Assembly (NCBI GenBank): GCA_944321765.1
Contig: CALUMQ010000019.1
Location: forward strand, 56,107 to 120,106
Reading direction: 5' to 3'
Source of the DNA: an uncultured Alistipes sp.
Lineage (GTDB): Bacteria > Bacteroidota > Bacteroidia > Bacteroidales > Rikenellaceae
DNA length: 64,000 bases
Numbering within the stretch: position 1 is the stretch's first letter; every line of letters starts with the position of its first letter. Positions 4,294-26,676 of the stretch are shown here, in pieces. Below the pieces are notes generated by a model, which was given only the letters and a program-made list of their open reading frames with translations, was not told the DNA's origin and did no database searches. A program made the translations under genes and the position numbers.

Positions 4294-5091
4294 ATGAGCA
4301 GACCAGGTGAAGACACCGTCCTAAGCCTTCCCGAAAGGCATAACCGTATTCTGATGCTCCTGCAGCAGCAGGGATCCCTGTCCGTAACGCAGCTGTCGGA
4401 GCAGTTCCGTGTCTCCGAGGTGACCATCCGCAAGGATCTGTCATACCTCGAGCAGCAGAAAAAACTCTATCGTACGCATGGCAGCGCGATTCTGATCAGT
4501 CCGTATATCAGTGACCGCCACGTGAGCGAGAAGGAGAAGAAGAACGTCCCGGAGAAACGGGCCATCGGCGCTGCGGGTGCCGCCCTGATCTCCCGCGACG
4601 ATTCGATCGTGATCGCCTCGGGAACGACGATGGCGTTTCTTGCGCGGGAGATTCATCCCGTGGGCCATCTGACGGTCATCACCTCGTCGGTTCCCGTGAC
4701 GCAGATCCTCTCGCAGCATGTCGATACGGACGTGATTCAACTGGGAGGTCTCACGCGTCGCAGTTCGGTGTCGGTCGTCGGGCCGTTTGCCGAGCAGATG
4801 CTGCGGAACTTCAATTGCAGCAAACTGTTCGTCGGTGTGGACGGCATCGATCCCGAGTTCGGACTCACGACGACCAACATGCTGGAGGCGTCGCTCAACG
4901 GAGCGATGATCGAAGCGGCCCAGAAGGTGGTGGTCCTGGCCGACAGTTCGAAATTCGGGCGCCGGGGCTTTAGCAAGATCTGCGACCTGGAGGCCGTGGA
5001 TCTCATCATCACCGACAGCGGTGTTCAGCCGCTGTATCTGGAGCGGCTGCGCGAACGCGGCATCGAGGTGACGGTGGTCGATGCCCTCTGA
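4294..5091 (+). CDS. DeoR-family transcriptional repressor, GlpR-like
   Basis: A 265-residue protein. The N-terminal DeoR helix-turn-helix covers about residues 12-67 (ERHNRILMLLQQQGSLSV and VSEVTIRKDLSYLEQ). The C-terminal DeoRC sugar-phosphate sensor covers about residues 80-260 (IVIASGTTMAFLAREI, QLGGLTRRSSVSVVGP, LFVGVDGID, VVVLADSSKFG). I chose the ATG at 4294 over an upstream in-frame ATG at 4264, because the promoter -7 element sits at 4267-4274. Its position between glpT and the glpQ-like gene, and the shared palindromes, suggest control of the glp genes, with glycerol-3-phosphate the likely inducer by analogy to GlpR. The ligand is inferred. Confidence 0.88.
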   Translation: MSRPGEDTVLSLPERHNRILMLLQQQGSLSVTQLSEQFRVSEVTIRKDLSYLEQQKKLYRTHGSAILISPYISDRHVSEKEKKNVPEKRAIGAAGAALISRDDSIVIASGTTMAFLAREIHPVGHLTVITSSVPVTQILSQHVDTDVIQLGGLTRRSSVSVVGPFAEQMLRNFNCSKLFVGVDGIDPEFGLTTTNMLEASLNGAMIEAAQKVVVLADSSKFGRRGFSKICDLEAVDLIITDSGVQPLYLERLRERGIEVTVVDAL

Positions 5092-5107
5092 CGATTCGCA
5101 CGCCCTC

Positions 5108-5149
5108 AAAAAAGCGACGGCTCCCTGTGCAGGGAACCGTCGCTTTCGT
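5108..5149. terminator. Bidirectional terminator between the DeoR gene and glpQ
   Basis: The stem GCGACGG (5114-5120) / CCGTCGC (5137-5143) also has an inner CTCCCTG/CAGGGA pairing. It is flanked by an A-run on the left and Ts on the right. It separates two convergent genes. Confidence 0.75.
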
Positions 5150-5194
5150 TTGACGGGCTTTCCGCATCCGTCGTGCGCCGCCGCTATTTCCGCC

Positions 5195-5959
5195 CTATTT
5201 CTTCAGCAGGGCCTGCAGACGCTCGGGGTAGTCGGTCGTGATGTAGTCGACGCCGAGGTCGATGAAGTATTTCATGTCCTCCTCCTTGTCAACGGTCCAT
5301 ACGTTGACTTCGAGTCCGAGATCCTGCGCCTCCTTCACCCATTCGGGATGTTTGCGCAACACCTTGTCCGAATAGTCGATACCGGCCATTCCGAGCTCCT
5401 TGACGCTCTTCGGGGCGAGGTCGCCGTTCAGAAAGAAGATCTTCGAGTCGGGGAGGAGCTTCTTGAAGGCCAGGCAGGCGTTGATCGAGAAGCAGATGAT
5501 GTCCGTGCGCTCCACGAGCTTGTATTTCTTGAGAGCCTTGGCGATCTTCTCGGCGGCAATGTCTTCGCGCTTGATGTCCGAGAGGGACTTCATCTCGAGG
5601 ATCAGTCGCGTATTGGGTTTCGTGAGGGCGAGTTTGAGGTACTCGTCCAGTGTGGGGATGTTCTCGCCGTTGGGCAGGACGATCTGCGTGATCTCCTTGG
5701 CGGTGGACTTCTCCATATTGATCTTGGTGCCTTTGTAGACCTTGTCGTGGTTTACGATGAGTTTGTTGTCTGCTGTGAGCCATACGTCGAACTCCGATCC
5801 GAAGACTCCGATGGCGTCGGCCTTGGTGAAGGATGCCAGGGAGTTCTGGGCCGATTCGGGAACTTTCCAGTATCCTCGGTGCGCGATGACCTTGGGCTGG
5901 GCGAGAGCGGCGCCTGCGAACAGGAGGCAGGCCGCCGTGAAAATGAGATTCTTTTTCAT
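5195..5959 (-). CDS. glpQ: Secreted glycerophosphodiester phosphodiesterase
   Basis: A 254-residue protein with a clear Sec signal peptide (MKKNLIFTAACLLFAGAALA, cleavage near residue 20). The GDPD motifs are all present: IAHRGYWKVPESAQNSLASF carries the catalytic HR and the metal-binding Glu/Asn, followed by SEFDVWLTADNKLIVNHD, LILEMK, and the C-terminal VNVWTVD and DYITTDYPERL. It should release glycerol-3-phosphate from deacylated phospholipids in the periplasm or at the cell surface. The neighbouring GlpT homologue would then import that product. Confidence 0.92.
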   Translation of the reverse strand: MKKNLIFTAACLLFAGAALAQPKVIAHRGYWKVPESAQNSLASFTKADAIGVFGSEFDVWLTADNKLIVNHDKVYKGTKINMEKSTAKEITQIVLPNGENIPTLDEYLKLALTKPNTRLILEMKSLSDIKREDIAAEKIAKALKKYKLVERTDIICFSINACLAFKKLLPDSKIFFLNGDLAPKSVKELGMAGIDYSDKVLRKHPEWVKEAQDLGLEVNVWTVDKEEDMKYFIDLGVDYITTDYPERLQALLKK

Positions 5960-6029
5960 AATTCAGGTATGTAATTTTTTTGAGTTGGCGGTTTTTTGAA
6001 ACCTTCGCTCTTGTGAAACGAAACCACTA

Positions 6030-10603: not shown

Positions 10604-10632
10604 CAAAGATACGAAAATATTTCATATCTTTG
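10604..10632. promoter_or_regulatory. Divergent -7 elements of fabD (minus) and of the cobalamin riboswitch transcript (plus)
   Basis: The minus strand has TATCTTTG at 10611-10604 for fabD, and the plus strand has TATCTTTG at 10625-10632. The plus-strand start would fall about 10635, only a few bases before the first riboswitch stem at 10638. That supports both calls. Neither has a clear TTTG -33 box. Confidence 0.6.
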
Positions 10633-10637
10633 CCACT

Positions 10638-10807
10638 GCATGGTTCACAAAGGGCGTTGCGCCCGGAGTGATCAAATGGGAATGCCGTGAGAATCGGCAG
10701 CAGTTCCCGCTGCTGTAAGTCCCGCGAGATGCCGCAATATCCCGAGCCACTGGATTTAGAATCCGGGAAGGCTTTGCGGCTGGGATGAGCCAGAAGACCT
10801 GCCATGC
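10638..10807 (+). ncRNA. Cobalamin (B12) riboswitch
   Basis: The conserved cobalamin aptamer elements occur in order. They are a closing stem GCATGG (10638-10643) / CCATGC (10802-10807), a hairpin GGGCGTTGCGCCC, the core GAGAATCGGCAGCAGTTCCC followed by GCTGCTGTAAGTCCCGCGA, the B12 box GCCACTG (10746-10752), and the distal GGGATGAGCCAGAAGACCTGCC. This RNA binds adenosyl- or other cobalamins and normally represses downstream genes when the vitamin is abundant. The next gene is a DUF4465 lipoprotein. Confidence 0.95.
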
Positions 10808-11070
10808 GACTTTCCCTGCGGGGGAGAGACTCTCATATTCGAGCGCATCTGCGGAGAACGGAGCATCGTGACAGGAAACATTCGGTCCCATATGCCGGAG
10901 GTTTGAGCCGGGCAGTTGCGTTGCGGAGTCGGGGAGTACGGTTCCGGAGCCTTGTTGCGTGCTGCAGGGAGAGTCCTCTGCGGAGGCACCGGGGAATTTC
11001 GACCCGCTGCGGGGAACGCCGGGAGGTGTGCTGGATAAGATCACATGCATTTATATAAAATATTGTAAAG
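10808..11070 (+). other. Long untranslated spacer between riboswitch and lipoprotein gene
   Basis: These 263 bases are GC-rich and carry no convincing coding frame, no rho-independent terminator with a T-run and no second aptamer that I can recognise. It may be an expression platform, or the remnant of a deleted gene that once followed the riboswitch. The last 25 bases before the ATG at 11071 are AT-rich. Confidence 0.4.
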
Positions 11071-20915: not shown

Positions 20916-21962
20916 TCAGTTGTTTTCGGGTCTGAGTTTGCGAACGACGGCTCCGGCCTGCCACATTTCGCTTTCGCGCATCTCCTTGAGTTCGGCGTTC
21001 AGCTTCTCACGGTAGTCGGGCTTGCTGTTGGCGTCGATCGATATCTGCGCTTCGTTTCCGGAGCGAACGCTCTCGTAGAGCTCCTCGAAGACGGGCTTCG
21101 TGGCGTCGCGGAAGCGCTTCCACCAGTCGAGGGCGCCGCGCTGGGCCGTAGTCGAGCAGTTGGCATACATCCAATCCATGCCGTTCTCGGCGATCAGGGG
21201 CATGAGCGACTGGGTCAGCTCCTCGACGGTTTCGTTGAAGGCCTCCGAGGGGGTGTGTCCGTGCGCGCGCAACGTGTCGTACTGCGCCGCAAAGATACCT
21301 TGAATGGCCCCCATCAGCGTGCCGCGCTCACCCGTGAGGTCGGAATATACCTCACGCTGGAAGTCCGTCTCGAAGAGGTATCCGGATCCAACGCCGATAC
21401 CCAGGGCGATAACGCGCTCCATGGCATGGCCCGTGGCGTCCTGGAAGACGGCATAGCTGGAGTTCAGACCGCGGCCCTGGAGGAACATGCGTCGCAGGGA
21501 GGTACCCGAACCCTTGGGGGCGATCAGGATGACGTCGACATCGGCCGGGGGGATGATTCCCGTGCGTTCCTTGTAGGTAATGCCGAAGCCGTGCGAGAAG
21601 TAGAGGGCCTTTCCAGGGGTCAGGTGCTTCTTGATGGTGGGCCATACGGCGATCTGTCCGGCATCGGAGAGCAGGTACTGAATGATCGTACCACGCTCGG
21701 CGGCCTCTTCGATCTCGAAGAGCGTTTCGCCCGGCACCCATCCGTCGGCTACGGCCTTGTCCCAGCTTTTTGAACCCTTGCGCTGCCCGACGATCACGCG
21801 AAAGCCGTTGTCGCGCAGGTTGAGCGACTGTCCGGGGCCCTGTACGCCATACCCGATGACGGCGATGGTTTCGTCCTTGAGCACCTCACGGGCCTTATCC
21901 AACGGGAACTCTTCGCGGGTGACGACGTTCTCTTCGACGCCGCCGAAATTGATCTTTGCCAT
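20916..21962 (-). CDS. ilvC: Ketol-acid reductoisomerase
   Basis: A 348-residue enzyme of the valine/isoleucine pathway. It isomerises and reduces acetolactate or acetohydroxybutyrate with NAD(P)H and Mg2+. The N-terminal Rossmann loop AVIGYGVQGPGQSLNLRDNG and cofactor-selecting loop VIVGQRKGSKSWDKA are visible, then FSHGFGI, LIAPKGSGTSLRR and the all-helical knotted domain with ETDFQREVYSDLTGERG. The GPGQ variant of the glycine loop is seen in Bacteroidetes KARIs. It lies 19 bases after ilvN. Confidence 0.95.
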   Translation of the reverse strand: MAKINFGGVEENVVTREEFPLDKAREVLKDETIAVIGYGVQGPGQSLNLRDNGFRVIVGQRKGSKSWDKAVADGWVPGETLFEIEEAAERGTIIQYLLSDAGQIAVWPTIKKHLTPGKALYFSHGFGITYKERTGIIPPADVDVILIAPKGSGTSLRRMFLQGRGLNSSYAVFQDATGHAMERVIALGIGVGSGYLFETDFQREVYSDLTGERGTLMGAIQGIFAAQYDTLRAHGHTPSEAFNETVEELTQSLMPLIAENGMDWMYANCSTTAQRGALDWWKRFRDATKPVFEELYESVRSGNEAQISIDANSKPDYREKLNAELKEMRESEMWQAGAVVRKLRPENN

Positions 21963-21981: not shown

Positions 21982-22539
21982 TTAACTGATTTTCAGATCT
22001 GTATTGTTTTTGTCTTTTTCGCGTTGACAACGGCGTTCGAACTCCTCGAGGTATTCGTTGAGCAGTTCGCGTTCCGATTTGCTGACGGCGACCGTTCCGC
22101 TGCGCACGAACTGCTGCACGCCGTAGGGTTGGAGCAGTTCGAAGAGCGCCTGGGTTTCGGCCTTGTGGCCGGTTTTCTCGACCACGATGTAGTCGGGATC
22201 GATCTCCAGGATGCGGACGTTGTGGTCGCGGACGAGCCGCTCGACGTTCCGACTGCGGTTGACCTTGTAGAGAGCGATCTCCTGCTGCACGACCTGGTCG
22301 GCCGTGTACACAAAGGTGCGGAGCACATCGACGCGTTTTTCAATCTGCCGCACGAGCTGTTCGACGCGTTCGGGGGTTGTTTTCACGACGATCGTGAACT
22401 TGTGAATGCCGTGTATGGCCGACTCCGAGGTGGTAAGGCTCTCGATGTTGACGCTTCGGCAGGTGAAGACCGTGGTGATCTGGCTGAGGAGTCCGACCTT
22501 GTTTTCCGAAAATACGGTGATGATATATTCCTGTTCCAT
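21982..22539 (-). CDS. ilvN: Acetolactate synthase small (regulatory) subunit
   Basis: A 185-residue ACT-domain protein. The N-terminal ACT domain (YIITVFSENKVGLLSQITTVF, then VNIESLTTSES) binds valine for feedback inhibition in this family. The C-terminal half (VYKVNRSR-like segment, then IVVEKTGHKAETQALFELL) is the IlvH-type second domain. It lies 15 bases after ilvB and would form the holoenzyme with it. Confidence 0.94.
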   Translation of the reverse strand: MEQEYIITVFSENKVGLLSQITTVFTCRSVNIESLTTSESAIHGIHKFTIVVKTTPERVEQLVRQIEKRVDVLRTFVYTADQVVQQEIALYKVNRSRNVERLVRDHNVRILEIDPDYIVVEKTGHKAETQALFELLQPYGVQQFVRSGTVAVSKSERELLNEYLEEFERRCQREKDKNNTDLKIS

Positions 22540-22554: not shown

Positions 22555-24282
22555 TTATTCGAAACGGATATCCGAAGCGGGGGCTCCGGCGGGCACCATC
22601 GGGAAGACGTTCTCCTCGTTCTCGACGCGTACCTCGAGCAGGAAGGCTCCGGGGGTCTCTTTCATCTCGGCGACGGCGTCGGCCAGCTCTTCGCGGCGCT
22701 CCACGCATCGGTATCCGATGCCGTTGGCGCGGGCTATGAGGCCGAAATCGGGATTCACCATCCGGGTGAACGAGTATCGGCTGTGATAGAAGAGCTCCTG
22801 CCACTGGCGGACCATCCCGAGGAAGGAGTTGTTGAGCAGAATGATCTTTACGGGGACCTGCGACTGATAAATGGTCGCCAGCTCCTGAATGGTCATCTGC
22901 AGACCGCCGTCCCCGACGAAGAGCACCACATCGCGCTCCGGGGCGCCGAGCTTGGCTCCGATGGCTGCAGGGAGACCGAATCCCATGGTTCCGAGGCCTC
23001 CGGAGGTGACGATGCTGCGCGTGCGGCGGAATCCGAAATAGCGGGCCGCAAACATCTGCTGCTGCCCGACGTCGGTGACCAGCACGGCATCGTTCCCGTA
23101 GGCGCGGGCCACCGCATCGACGGTTTCGCCCATCCGGATGTGCCCGCTTTCGGGATGAATGGCGCGGCGGATCACCGCGTCGTACTCCACCCGGTCGCAT
23201 TCGCGGAATTCGGCGATCCAGGCGTTATGGCTGCGGCGTTCGATGCGGCTGGTGATCAGGGGCAGGGTCTCGCGTACGTCGCCGGCTACGGGAACATCCG
23301 CCGGGATGATCTTTCCGATCTCCGCGGGGTCGATCTCCAGATGGATCACGCGGGCGTTCTCCGCGAAGTGGGCGGGGTCGCCCGTCACGCGGTCGTCGAA
23401 ACGCATGCCCACGGCCACGATCAGATCGCACTCGCGGTTTTTGATGTTCGGGCCGTAGTTTCCGTGCATGCCGAGCATGCCGACATATTGCGGCGCGTCG
23501 GTCGGCACGGCCGACAGCCCCAGCAGGGTCGACGCCACGGGCATGCCGCTCTTTTCGAGGAAATCCTTCAGTTCGGCCTCGGCATTTCCGAGCACGACAC
23601 CCTGTCCGACCATGACCAGCGGATGCTGTGCACGGTCGATCAGCCGCGCAGCCTCCTCGATGCAGGCCATGTCGGGATCCGGCACGGGGATGTAGCTGCG
23701 TATGGCGGTGACCTTTTTGTAGTGGAACGGCGCCATGCCGCACTGGGCATCCTTCGTGATGTCGACGACTACGGGTCCGGGACGTCCCGACCGGGCGATA
23801 TAGAAGGCCTTGGCAATGGCAGCCGGAATCTCTTCGGTGCGCTTCACCTGGCAGTTCCACTTCGTCACGGCCTGGGTGATCCCCACGAAATTGGTCTCCT
23901 GAAAGGCGTCCGTACCCAGCAGCGACGATCCCACCTGCCCGGTGACGAGCACCAGGGGCGTGGAGTCCATCAGCGCGTCGGCCAGTCCCGTGACGGTGTT
24001 CGTGGCTCCGGGGCCCGAGGTTACCAGACAGACTCCCACGCGTCCACTCACCCGGGCATACCCCTGGGCGGCATGTACGGCGCCCTGCTCGTGCCGCACG
24101 AGAATGTGCCTTATGCGGTCGCGGTAGTCGTACAACGCATCGTAAACGGGGATAATGGCTCCTCCGGGGTATCCGAAGAGGGTGTCGACACCTTCGATCA
24201 GAAACGATTCGATCAAGGCCTGCGACCCGCTCATGCAGGGCCCGGAGGCCTGTTGCTGAGCATCTGAAGTAGAGGTATTCAT
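22555..24282 (-). CDS. ilvB: Acetolactate synthase large (catalytic) subunit
   Basis: A 575-residue thiamine-diphosphate enzyme. It condenses pyruvate with pyruvate or 2-oxobutyrate. The N-terminal GYPGGAIIPVYDAL and catalytic Glu65 in LVRHEQGAVHAAQGYAR are present, as are the FAD/central-domain segments and the C-terminal TPP motif FVGDGGLQMTIQELATI followed by LLNNSFLGMVRQWQE. It follows ilvD after 61 bases and precedes its regulatory subunit. Confidence 0.96.
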   Translation of the reverse strand: MNTSTSDAQQQASGPCMSGSQALIESFLIEGVDTLFGYPGGAIIPVYDALYDYRDRIRHILVRHEQGAVHAAQGYARVSGRVGVCLVTSGPGATNTVTGLADALMDSTPLVLVTGQVGSSLLGTDAFQETNFVGITQAVTKWNCQVKRTEEIPAAIAKAFYIARSGRPGPVVVDITKDAQCGMAPFHYKKVTAIRSYIPVPDPDMACIEEAARLIDRAQHPLVMVGQGVVLGNAEAELKDFLEKSGMPVASTLLGLSAVPTDAPQYVGMLGMHGNYGPNIKNRECDLIVAVGMRFDDRVTGDPAHFAENARVIHLEIDPAEIGKIIPADVPVAGDVRETLPLITSRIERRSHNAWIAEFRECDRVEYDAVIRRAIHPESGHIRMGETVDAVARAYGNDAVLVTDVGQQQMFAARYFGFRRTRSIVTSGGLGTMGFGLPAAIGAKLGAPERDVVLFVGDGGLQMTIQELATIYQSQVPVKIILLNNSFLGMVRQWQELFYHSRYSFTRMVNPDFGLIARANGIGYRCVERREELADAVAEMKETPGAFLLEVRVENEENVFPMVPAGAPASDIRFE

Positions 24283-24343: not shown

Positions 24344-26167
24344 TTACTCTTCGTCGCCGAGGATGCGGACGGCTCCGCGGTCTGCGGAACTTACCATCCG
24401 GGCGTAAGCCCGGAGTGATTTGGGAACCTCCCGCTCGCGACCCGCCGGGCGGAAGTGCTGCTGTGCGGCCATGCGTGCGGCGATCTCCTCGTCGTCGGCC
24501 AGCAGGCGGATCGAACGGTTCGGGATGTCGATTTCGATCATGTCGCCCGTGCGTACGACGGCGATTTCGCCTCCTGCGGCGGCTTCGGGCGATATGTGCC
24601 CGATCGAAAGTCCGGAGGTTCCGCCCGAGAAGCGACCGTCGGTGATCAGCGCACACGCCTTGTCGAGATGCTTCGACTTGAGATACGACGTGGGGTAGAG
24701 CATCTCCTGCATGCCGGGACCGCCCTTGGGACCCTCGTAGCGGATGACCACCACCTCGCCGGGCTGCACCTCGTCGCCGAGAATGCCGTTCATGGCCTGC
24801 TCCTGCGACTCATAGACGCGCGCCGGACCGCGGAATACGAAGAGCTTCTCGTCCACCCCGGCGGTCTTCACGACGCACCCCGCACGAGCGATGTTTCCCG
24901 TCAGCACGGCCAGTCCGCCGTCCTGGAAGTAGGCGTGCCCGATGTCGCGTATGCATCCCGCGCAACGGTCCGTGTCGGGTTCGTCGTAGTATGTCTGCTG
25001 CGACCCCAGCTCGCGGCTGTAAAGACCTGCCGGAGCGCTCAGTGCACGGCGTCGCGCGGCGTCTGTGGCCGTGGGACTGAGGATATCGCATGCGGCGATT
25101 GCCTCTGCCAGCGAACGTCCTTCGACGCGGTAAACCGACGTGTCGAGCAACCCTCCGCGGTTGAGTTCACCGAGAATGGCGAAGATACCTCCGGCGCGGT
25201 TTACATCCTCGATGTGGAAGTGGGAGTTGGGAGCCACCTTGCACAATACCGGAATCCGACGTGAAAGCCGGTCGATGTCCTGCATCGTGAAGTCCACGCC
25301 GGCCTCGTACGCCACGGCGAGCAGGTGGAGCACCGTGTTGGTCGATCCGCCCATGGCGATGTCGAGCGACATGGCGTTCTCGAAGGCGGCTTTCGTGGCG
25401 ATCGAGCGGGGCAGAACGCGTTCATCCCCCTCGAAGTAGTAACGTTCGGCATTGCGGACGATGAGCGCCGCGGCGTCCTCGAAGAGCTGCCGGCGGTTGA
25501 CATGCGTAGCGACGATCGTTCCGTTTCCGGGGAGCGAGAGCCCGAGAGCCTCCGTGAGGCAGTTCATCGAATTGGCGGTGAACATTCCCGAGCAGGAGCC
25601 GCATCCGGGGCAGGCACAGCGCTCGACCTCGGCGATTTCGGCATCGCTGCAACGGTCGTCGGCAGCCATGACCATGGCGTCGATCAGATCGAGTCTGCGT
25701 TCGCCCATGCGTCCGGCCTCCATCGGGCCTCCGGAGACGAATATCGTGGGGATGTTGAGCCGCATGGCGGCCATGAGCATGCCGGGGGTTATCTTGTCGC
25801 AGTTGGAGATGCATACCAGGGCGTCGATCTTGTGTGCGTTGGCCATGTACTCGACGCTGTCGGCGATGATGTCCCGCGAGGGGAGCGAGTAGAGCATTCC
25901 GTCGTGGCCCATGGCGATTCCGTCGTCGATGGCTATGGTGTTGAACTCTGCGGCGAAGCATCCGAGGGCTTCGATGCGCTGTTTGACGTATTGCCCGATC
26001 TGATGCAGATGCACGTGTCCGGGCACGAACTGCGTGAAGGAGTTTGCTATTCCGATGACGGGTTTTCCGAACTGCTCTTCGCGCATTCCGTTTGCGCGCC
26101 AGAGGCTGCGGGCTCCGGCCATGCGTCGGCCTTCGGTAGTGGCGGCGCTTCTGAGTTGGTGTTTCAT
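24344..26167 (-). CDS. ilvD: Dihydroxy-acid dehydratase
   Basis: A 607-residue Fe-S enzyme for the third common step of valine and isoleucine synthesis. The start [20 protein letters not shown] at 26167 is the expected N-terminus. The frame stays open upstream to a TTG at 26266, but that stretch contains the attenuator terminator and is not coding. Cluster ligands lie in NCDKITPGM and [32 protein letters not shown] and the C-terminal [19 protein letters not shown] are typical. It is the first structural gene of ilvDBNC-asnB. Confidence 0.95.
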
Positions 26168-26233
26168 TTTCGTCGAGAAAAAGCGGAAATCGGACGGTTC
26201 CTGCCCCGTGCGGGGGGACCCCTGGAAATCAGA

Positions 26234-26301
26234 AAACCTTTCTCCGTTTCGGGAGAAAGGTTTCAAATAACCGTTCGGATATCCATGTCACCTTTCTCCC
26301 G
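26234..26301 (-). terminator. ilv attenuator: competing antiterminator and terminator stems
   Basis: On the minus strand, CGGGAGAAAGGT (26301-26290), right after the leader stop, can pair perfectly with ACCTTTCTCCCG (26261-26250). The second segment can alternatively pair as AAACCTTTCTCC (26263-26252) with GGAGAAAGGTTT (26245-26234), a 12-base stem with a 6-base loop followed by TCTGATT. The two structures exclude each other, as in classical amino-acid operon attenuation. Confidence 0.85.
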
Positions 26302-26304
26302 TTG

Positions 26305-26367
26305 TCAGGCATTGACGACGAGCAGCAGATTAATGACGATGATATTCGAATGGATCAAGACAGTCAT
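26305..26367 (-). CDS. ilv operon leader peptide (Ile/Leu/Val-rich)
   Basis: A 20-residue open frame, MTVLIHSNIIVINLLLVVNA, followed by TGA. Twelve of its 20 residues are Val, Leu or Ile, including runs IIVI and LLLVV just before the stop. It begins 30 bases after an exact -7 element and ends 4 bases before the antiterminator arm. Ribosome stalling on these codons when branched-chain aminoacyl-tRNAs are scarce would favour the antiterminator. It is too short for ordinary gene finders. Confidence 0.85.
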   Translation of the reverse strand: MTVLIHSNIIVINLLLVVNA

Positions 26368-26396
26368 GTCCGAAGTTCCTTGTTGTTTGTTGGAAT

Positions 26397-26428
26397 CAAA
26401 GGTAGGGATATTTCGTTTGATTGCCAAA
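26397..26428 (-). promoter_or_regulatory. ilv operon promoter
   Basis: The minus strand reads TTTG (26428-26425), 20 bases, TACCTTTG (26404-26397). This is an exact match to the Bacteroidetes consensus. The predicted start is about 27 bases before the leader ATG. The rest of the gap up to 26676 holds no gene or structure I can support. Confidence 0.85.
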
Positions 26429-26676
26429 TAATTTCCTAAAAAAATTTAATTTCGTGACGATCCGGAAGTGATATCCGGGACGGGTGTTTCTTTTTTGACG
26501 TATAGCAGGCATTTGCCTTACGGTTTGCATGCGGTTTTTCGGCCCGTCCGACCCGGGTTGCTTCGTCTGAACCGGCTCTGAACGCGCTGACGGGGGATTG
26601 CTGCCGCTTTTTTAAAATTATTATATAGGTGAACCCTGTTTGTGACGCTTTTTCGATTACGAATTGTAAGCGGTTC

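Follow-up and report, generated by a model that had tools for sequence, protein, structure and literature searches.

The window analysed here, a 64,000-nt stretch of contig CALUMQ010000019.1 from an uncultured Alistipes sp., carries on its minus strand an ilv operon with the gene order ilvD, ilvB, ilvN, ilvC, then asnB, and thrB and thrC lie on the opposite strand from 27054. Upstream of ilvD is a short leader region, the parts of which are collected in Table 1. The initial annotation had described a promoter, a 20-codon frame with 12 Ile, Leu or Val (I/L/V) codons and a T-containing tail before ilvD, and all of these were located on the minus strand; the remainder of its layout is likewise present, but ilvD starts at 26167 and a possible segment 1 had been overlooked. 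The arrangement of TTTG, gap and TAnnTTTG at 26397-26428 is what we take to be the Bacteroidetes promoter consensus, and from it we infer a transcription start near 26391. Elsewhere in the window, a cobalamin riboswitch (Rfam RF00174, 103 bits) occupies 10624-10820 (+).

Table 1. Features of the ilvD leader and of the ilv operon, in window coordinates.
Feature	Position	Strand	Basis
Bacteroidetes-type promoter: TTTG (26428-26425), 20-nt gap, TACCTTTG (26404-26397)	26397..26428	-	sequence
Leader frame, 20 codons plus stop, ATG 26367 to TGA 26305, 12/20 I/L/V: MTVLIHSNIIVINLLLVVNA	26305..26367	-	sequence
Possible segment 1: CTC GTC GTC, Leu-Val-Val, codons 16-18	26314..26322	-	
Segment 2, antiterminator 5' arm: CGGGAGAAAGGT	26290..26301	-	sequence
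Segment 3, shared arm, partner of segment 2 or segment 4: GAAACCTTTCTCCCG	26250..26264	-	
Segment 4, terminator 3' arm: GGAGAAAGGTTTT	26233..26245	-	
U-rich terminator tail, overlapping the base of segment 4: TTTTCTGATTT	26226..26236	-	sequence
ilvD, dihydroxy-acid dehydratase, first gene of the operon	24344..26167	-	NCBIfam NF009103 1029.5 bits, TIGR00110 781.4 bits, both over cut-off
ilvB, acetolactate synthase large subunit	22555..24282	-	TIGR00118 691.1 bits
ilvN, acetolactate synthase small subunit	21982..22539	-	TIGR00119 101.7 bits
ilvC, ketol-acid reductoisomerase	20916..21962	-	TIGR00465 320.5 bits

The antiterminator (2:3) and the terminator (3:4) have one arm, segment 3, in common and are mutually exclusive. 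Such exclusivity had been claimed for two stems of 12 bases each; this length holds for 2:3 (12 bp, -25.7 kcal/mol alone), whereas the terminator stem has 13 bp with one G-U (-17.9 kcal/mol alone, -19.9 kcal/mol with its flanks) and ends 65 nt before the ilvD ATG. The U-tail of the window, CTGATTT after TTTT, is short, broken and weak, and is less regular than the longer T-runs of many relatives. For possible segment 1, the region of the stop codon together with the 5' part of segment 2 offers a pairing partner. When a ribosome was mimicked by masking 27 nt of the window leader, a length that we assumed, and the folds were read from dot-brackets, a mask at Leu14, Val17 or Val18 led to 2:3, a mask at the stop codon led to 3:4, and the unmasked leader formed 1:2 plus 3:4. 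Across loci, 2:3 had the stronger fold energy in just 43 of 69. Between segments 2 and 3 of the window leader there is also a small frame, MDIRTVI. Furthermore, segments 2 and 4 (26290-26301 and 26237-26245) have a purine core, GAGAAAGG, that appears to be more conserved across genera than pairing requires and is similar to the complement of the 16S rRNA 3' tail.

Conservation was followed in two sets of loci. For the first, 150 genomes of the family were searched for IlvD; 72 of them gave a match at E ≤ 1e-100, and 30 loci from these (L001-L030) were examined; the best 80 of the further IlvD loci from named genome contigs made up the second set (L031-L110), and some species are shared by both. 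Within the region scanned, up to 600 nt upstream of each ilvD, an I/L/V leader together with a triple of segments 2, 3 and 4 was found in 76 of the 110 loci, the window's own included, and these 76 hold 70 distinct sequences. Comparison with close relatives had been proposed as the check on the initial annotation, which withstood it: leader and triple are present in all 16 of the same-genus loci that were fetched (L001-L016, own included).

The other 34 loci failed the scan. Four of them (L017, L049, L074 and L099) nevertheless match R1, a covariance model for which only ilvD leaders were used, and the leader of L099 lacks an ATG and, by eye, would need a GTG start. In another four (L018, L019, L022 and L064) an I/L/V frame with imperfect stems was recognised by eye, for L064 from its like rows, and two loci are truncated by the end of the contig. 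The element was not found upstream of ilvD in the last 24, which comprise ten loci from other Rikenellaceae genera (L020, L021 and L023-L030) and 14 others, three of them Desulfobulbus; one of the 14 (L107) has an I/L/V-rich frame and no stems. The element is thus common in Bacteroidales, though not universal, and some members of the family seem to lack it or to have lost it. Near the ilvD start of L020 there is a TAACTTTG box, with a similar one in L023, as if the leader had been lost. The Desulfobulbus loci (L082, L085 and L087) encode an IlvD ~71-72% identical to that of the window with no leader found upstream, perhaps through gene transfer minus the regulator or through misplaced contigs.

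Could such an arrangement arise by chance? The 300 nt that precede ilvD were shuffled 3000 times with their dinucleotides preserved. With a leader defined by at least 7 I/L/V in 12 codons, 201 of these shuffles contained some triple, one contained a triple as long as that of the window, and none contained a triple plus an I/L/V leader. The shuffle control for the 110-locus scan gave triple plus leader in 0/324 and the triple alone in 5/324, counts that overstate significance because kinship among the sequences means that the loci are not independent. Since triple and leader were found together in 0/3000 and 0/324 shuffles, a chance origin of the parts is excluded. When the window itself was scanned on both strands, in 300-nt stretches every 120 nt, the ilvD site was recovered with one other near 5.7-5.9 kb. 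We dismissed this second site (~5.8 kb), which has the lowest allowed score and lies within long ORFs (5195-5959 minus, 5081-5974 plus).

Both stems show compensatory change. The 70 distinct positives contributed 56 sequences to one alignment (A1) and 55 to another (A2), close kin being omitted. In the 56 aligned loci, 94.3% of cells are paired in the terminator 3:4, with both-side changes in 12 of 12 pairs (45 changed cells vs 10.6 in shuffles), and 91.2% are paired in the antiterminator 2:3, with both-side changes in 5 of 10 pairs (14 changed cells vs 5.7). Versions of 2:3 slid out of register pair in merely 45-69% of cells; their changed-cell counts are 13 at +2 and 18 at +3, vs 14 in the true register, and the covariation of 2:3 is weaker than that of 3:4. 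The 1:2 pairing is made in 228 of 232 cells in 29 loci (28 of the Alistipes type plus L042), where it is mostly invariant, and over all 55 rows its covariation is not clearly above that of the slid controls.

That the terminator is richest in compensatory changes would suit a real terminator whose leader frame couples termination only to translation in general, so that any starvation or slow translation, and not a lack of Ile, Leu or Val specifically, would be sensed. However, we consider this improbable given the coding content of the leader. The I/L/V share peaks in the leader frame at 54.6%; the two remaining forward frames reach 26.3% and 8.8%, and the three reverse ones 17%, 29% and 14%. 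Among like-length leaders of at least 75% identity, which form non-independent pairs, 22 of 35 amino-acid changes away from Ile, Leu or Val lead to another of the three, vs 31% expected. In the same pairs, which again are not independent, 174 of the 354 codon differences that involve one base are synonymous (0.216 expected). General coupling also sits poorly with the scarcity of Val in the leaders of leuA, described below.

Over the 76 loci the leader has 15-28 codons, most commonly 18. The end of its stop codon lies between -5 and +27 nt of the start of segment 2, most commonly at -1 and in the window 3 nt before it. As the stop ends so close to segment 2, a ribosome that has reached it would mask that segment wholly or in part. 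The promoter motif keeps its place in the same loci: TAnnTTTG lies at most 130 nt upstream of the leader ATG in 74/76 (9% in mononucleotide shuffles), TTG plus TAnnTTTG lies upstream of it in 68/76 (1% in mononucleotide shuffles), and TAnnTTTG falls between the leader ATG and ilvD in just 5/76. The hydrophobic run within the 20-residue peptide might instead suggest a functional small membrane peptide, in which Ile, Leu and Val would be there for the membrane, with the hairpin a terminator of its own. We think this very unlikely, as the distance from the stop codon to segment 2 stays within narrow limits, flanking residues vary, and Ile, Leu and Val dominate the hydrophobic residues of ilvD leaders, with Ala (2.2%), Phe (2.0%) and Met (0.6%) all rare.

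The element is not confined to ilvD. R1 was run on ilvD loci L017-L110, leaving out L001-L016, and over genomes of the order and of the class. In the order, matches at E ≤ 0.01 were obtained in at most 159/295 genomes, an upper bound because the quasi-palindromic terminator gives partial matches (~positions 58-129) or matches on the reverse strand; matches of these two kinds were dismissed and left uncounted among those that were read. In the class, 43/295 genomes gave a match at E ≤ 1e-4. For the order we read the returned loci plus 40 chosen regions, omitting L179 (38.0 bits), L173, L180 and the 29-bit match of L161, and the class loci L184, L186 and L207 were left out of the repeat search. 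This yielded 104 matches in 91 loci, which include same or near species (L042 and L116, L138 and L150). The next gene encodes IlvD in 53 matches, LeuA in 19, IlvB in nine, an IlvN-like protein in two and others in 21, and 92 of the 104 combine a 3:4 stem of 8 bp or more with a 2:3 run of 6 or longer; the other 12 fall short. Eight loci among the others were checked, giving four ilvE, two aspartokinases and two with no family at E ≤ 1e-70. The Thr/Ile-rich leaders before an aspartokinase gene in L203 and L204, which ilvD-derived R1 found, resemble the E. coli thr leader.

The leaders of leuA are informative as to specificity. Of the 19 LeuA loci, 18 were scanned (L130, L139, L148, L149, L151, L153, L154, L155, L157, L159, L162, L164, L166, L170, L172, L175, L176 and L182), and all match 2-isopropylmalate synthase, 17 over cut-off and one cut short; a further leuA leader (L205) was found by similarity. 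No ATG leader was found in L162, and that of L151 is weak. Leu and Ile are abundant in these leaders and Val is scarce: Val makes up 20.6% of the residues of the 46 distinct leaders before ilvD and 2.9% of those of the 17 distinct ones before leuA, in a set of distinct peptides with at least 7 I/L/V in 12, a rule that favours I/L/V in every group. Leaders without any Val number 0/46 before ilvD and 9/17 before leuA, and a Val difference of this size was reached in 0/10000 permutations, uncorrected for kinship. The codon content of the leader tracks the downstream gene, as is predicted for an attenuator that acts as an amino-acid sensor, and the contrast between leuA and ilvD makes amino-acid specificity predictable and testable. 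That leuA leaders also carry Ile may be explained if leuBCD take part in making isoleucine via citramalate. In the window's genome, a second leuA-like gene lies near leuA, and the region upstream of the genome's own leuA (L209, G000:C1) gave no R1 match and no Rfam match.

Riboswitches and T-boxes, too, have alternative stems within a 5' leader, and a leader that binds a metabolite or a tRNA could be proposed in place of ribosome-mediated attenuation. We give this reading the least credence of all. At gathering score, Rfam 15 has no family at 26150-26460 and none in 20 related loci; the matches at a relaxed threshold (mir-722, CRISPR-DR58 and CbSR1) were dismissed as far below their cut-offs, and none is a riboswitch or T-box. 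In addition, a frame that ends 3 nt before segment 2 leaves little room for an aptamer. The covariance model of Bacteroid-trp (RF01692) found no match in the window or in the 88.6% complete genome. As no Rfam 15 family matches the window's copy or the 20 related loci, Rfam-based annotation would miss the ilvD attenuator.

The reading of the initial annotation, ribosome-mediated attenuation, is supported by the conservation of the element, by both-side changes in 3:4 and 2:3, and by the codon content of ilvD and leuA leaders. To judge from its sequence, the ilvDBNC leader is, with high probability, a ribosome-mediated transcription attenuator responding to Ile, Leu and Val; promoter use, leader translation, termination and the amino-acid response are what we infer from it. 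First, RNA polymerase would start near 26391 and the leader frame would be made first. If charged Ile-, Leu- and Val-tRNA were plentiful, the ribosome would reach the stop at 26305 and cover segment 2, 3:4 would pair, and transcription would end near 26226-26233. If any of the three amino acids were short, the ribosome would stall before reaching segment 2, at one of the 12 I/L/V codons, so that 2:3 would pair, no terminator would form and ilvDBNC would be transcribed. An untranslated leader would form 1:2 plus 3:4 and also terminate. The leader is a switch of a classic type that very probably keeps the ilv genes off while Ile, Leu and Val are plentiful, and many relatives have preserved it.

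The most unusual aspect of the attenuator is its occurrence in tandem. Two matches in series, with two I/L/V leaders and terminator-like hairpins, before one branched-chain amino acid (BCAA) operon were seen in 12 of the loci examined, all outside the window: L042, L116, L135, L143, L144, L145 and L146 before ilvD, L147 before ilvB, L191, L195 and L199 before ilvE, and L201 before an IlvN-like gene. Leader and triple are present in both units in six of the 12 (L042, L116, L135, L143, L144 and L199), among which L042 and L116 are identical in the tandem region and L143 and L144 are near kin. In the accessible part of the literature, Salmonella mgtCBR came up in connection with tandem attenuators. 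If the tandem reading is true, two serial attenuators should sharpen or multiply the amino-acid response.

It is tempting to view all these leaders as one uncurated RNA element of the class Bacteroidia that descends from a single ancestor, has moved between BCAA operons, was recoded on the way (Ile/Leu/Val before ilvD, ilvB and ilvE, Leu/Ile with little Val before leuA, and perhaps Thr/Ile before aspartokinase) and was doubled in some lineages. We hold this view tentatively, at a little under an even chance, which takes into account that leader and triple occur in both units of only six of the 12 tandem loci. In its favour, CCTTTCTC is found in 35/53 ilvD, 10/19 leuA and 5/9 ilvB matches; against one descent for all, it is found in just 2/21 of the other matches.

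Enterobacterial ilv leaders, like that of the window, combine an I/L/V-rich leader peptide, alternative segment pairing and a terminator before an ilv operon. The enterobacterial ilvGMEDA leader has ~32 residues, vs 20 in the window, and its promoter type and first gene are different. Attenuator candidates in Bacteroidetes/Chlorobi are reportedly named in the abstract of Vitreschak and colleagues from 2004. In the literature searched, to which subscription papers mostly did not belong as they were outside our reach, no ilv attenuator of Bacteroidales was found named. Bacteroid-trp RNA acts by attenuation. It has been listed as a candidate cis-regulatory RNA of Bacteroidetes (Rfam RF01692; PMC2864571).

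The mechanism itself is already known from many bacteria. The Staphylococcus aureus ilvD attenuator has a similar arrangement, a Leu/Ile-rich leader and a terminator directly upstream of ilvD, and in mutants obtained by selection in the absence of Val the terminator was gone or a stop codon had arisen within the leader (PMC5794164). It differs in that the antiterminator there would, as proposed, capture the poly-U tail, in that CodY acts too, and in being a different RNA (PMC5794164). Similarly, the ilvBNC attenuator of Corynebacterium glutamicum places a terminator, an antiterminator and an anti-antiterminator before a BCAA operon, although the phylum is another one and so is the first gene (PMC11857589). 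Leader-peptide attenuation had earlier been hinted at in Bacteroidetes by two transcriptome studies: that of Flavobacterium psychrophilum found strong signs of it ahead of amino-acid operons (PMC9723704), and that of Bacteroides thetaiotaomicron reports short 5' UTR ORFs reminiscent of attenuation leaders (PMC7366714). The mechanism suggested in them, and the phylum, are as in the window.
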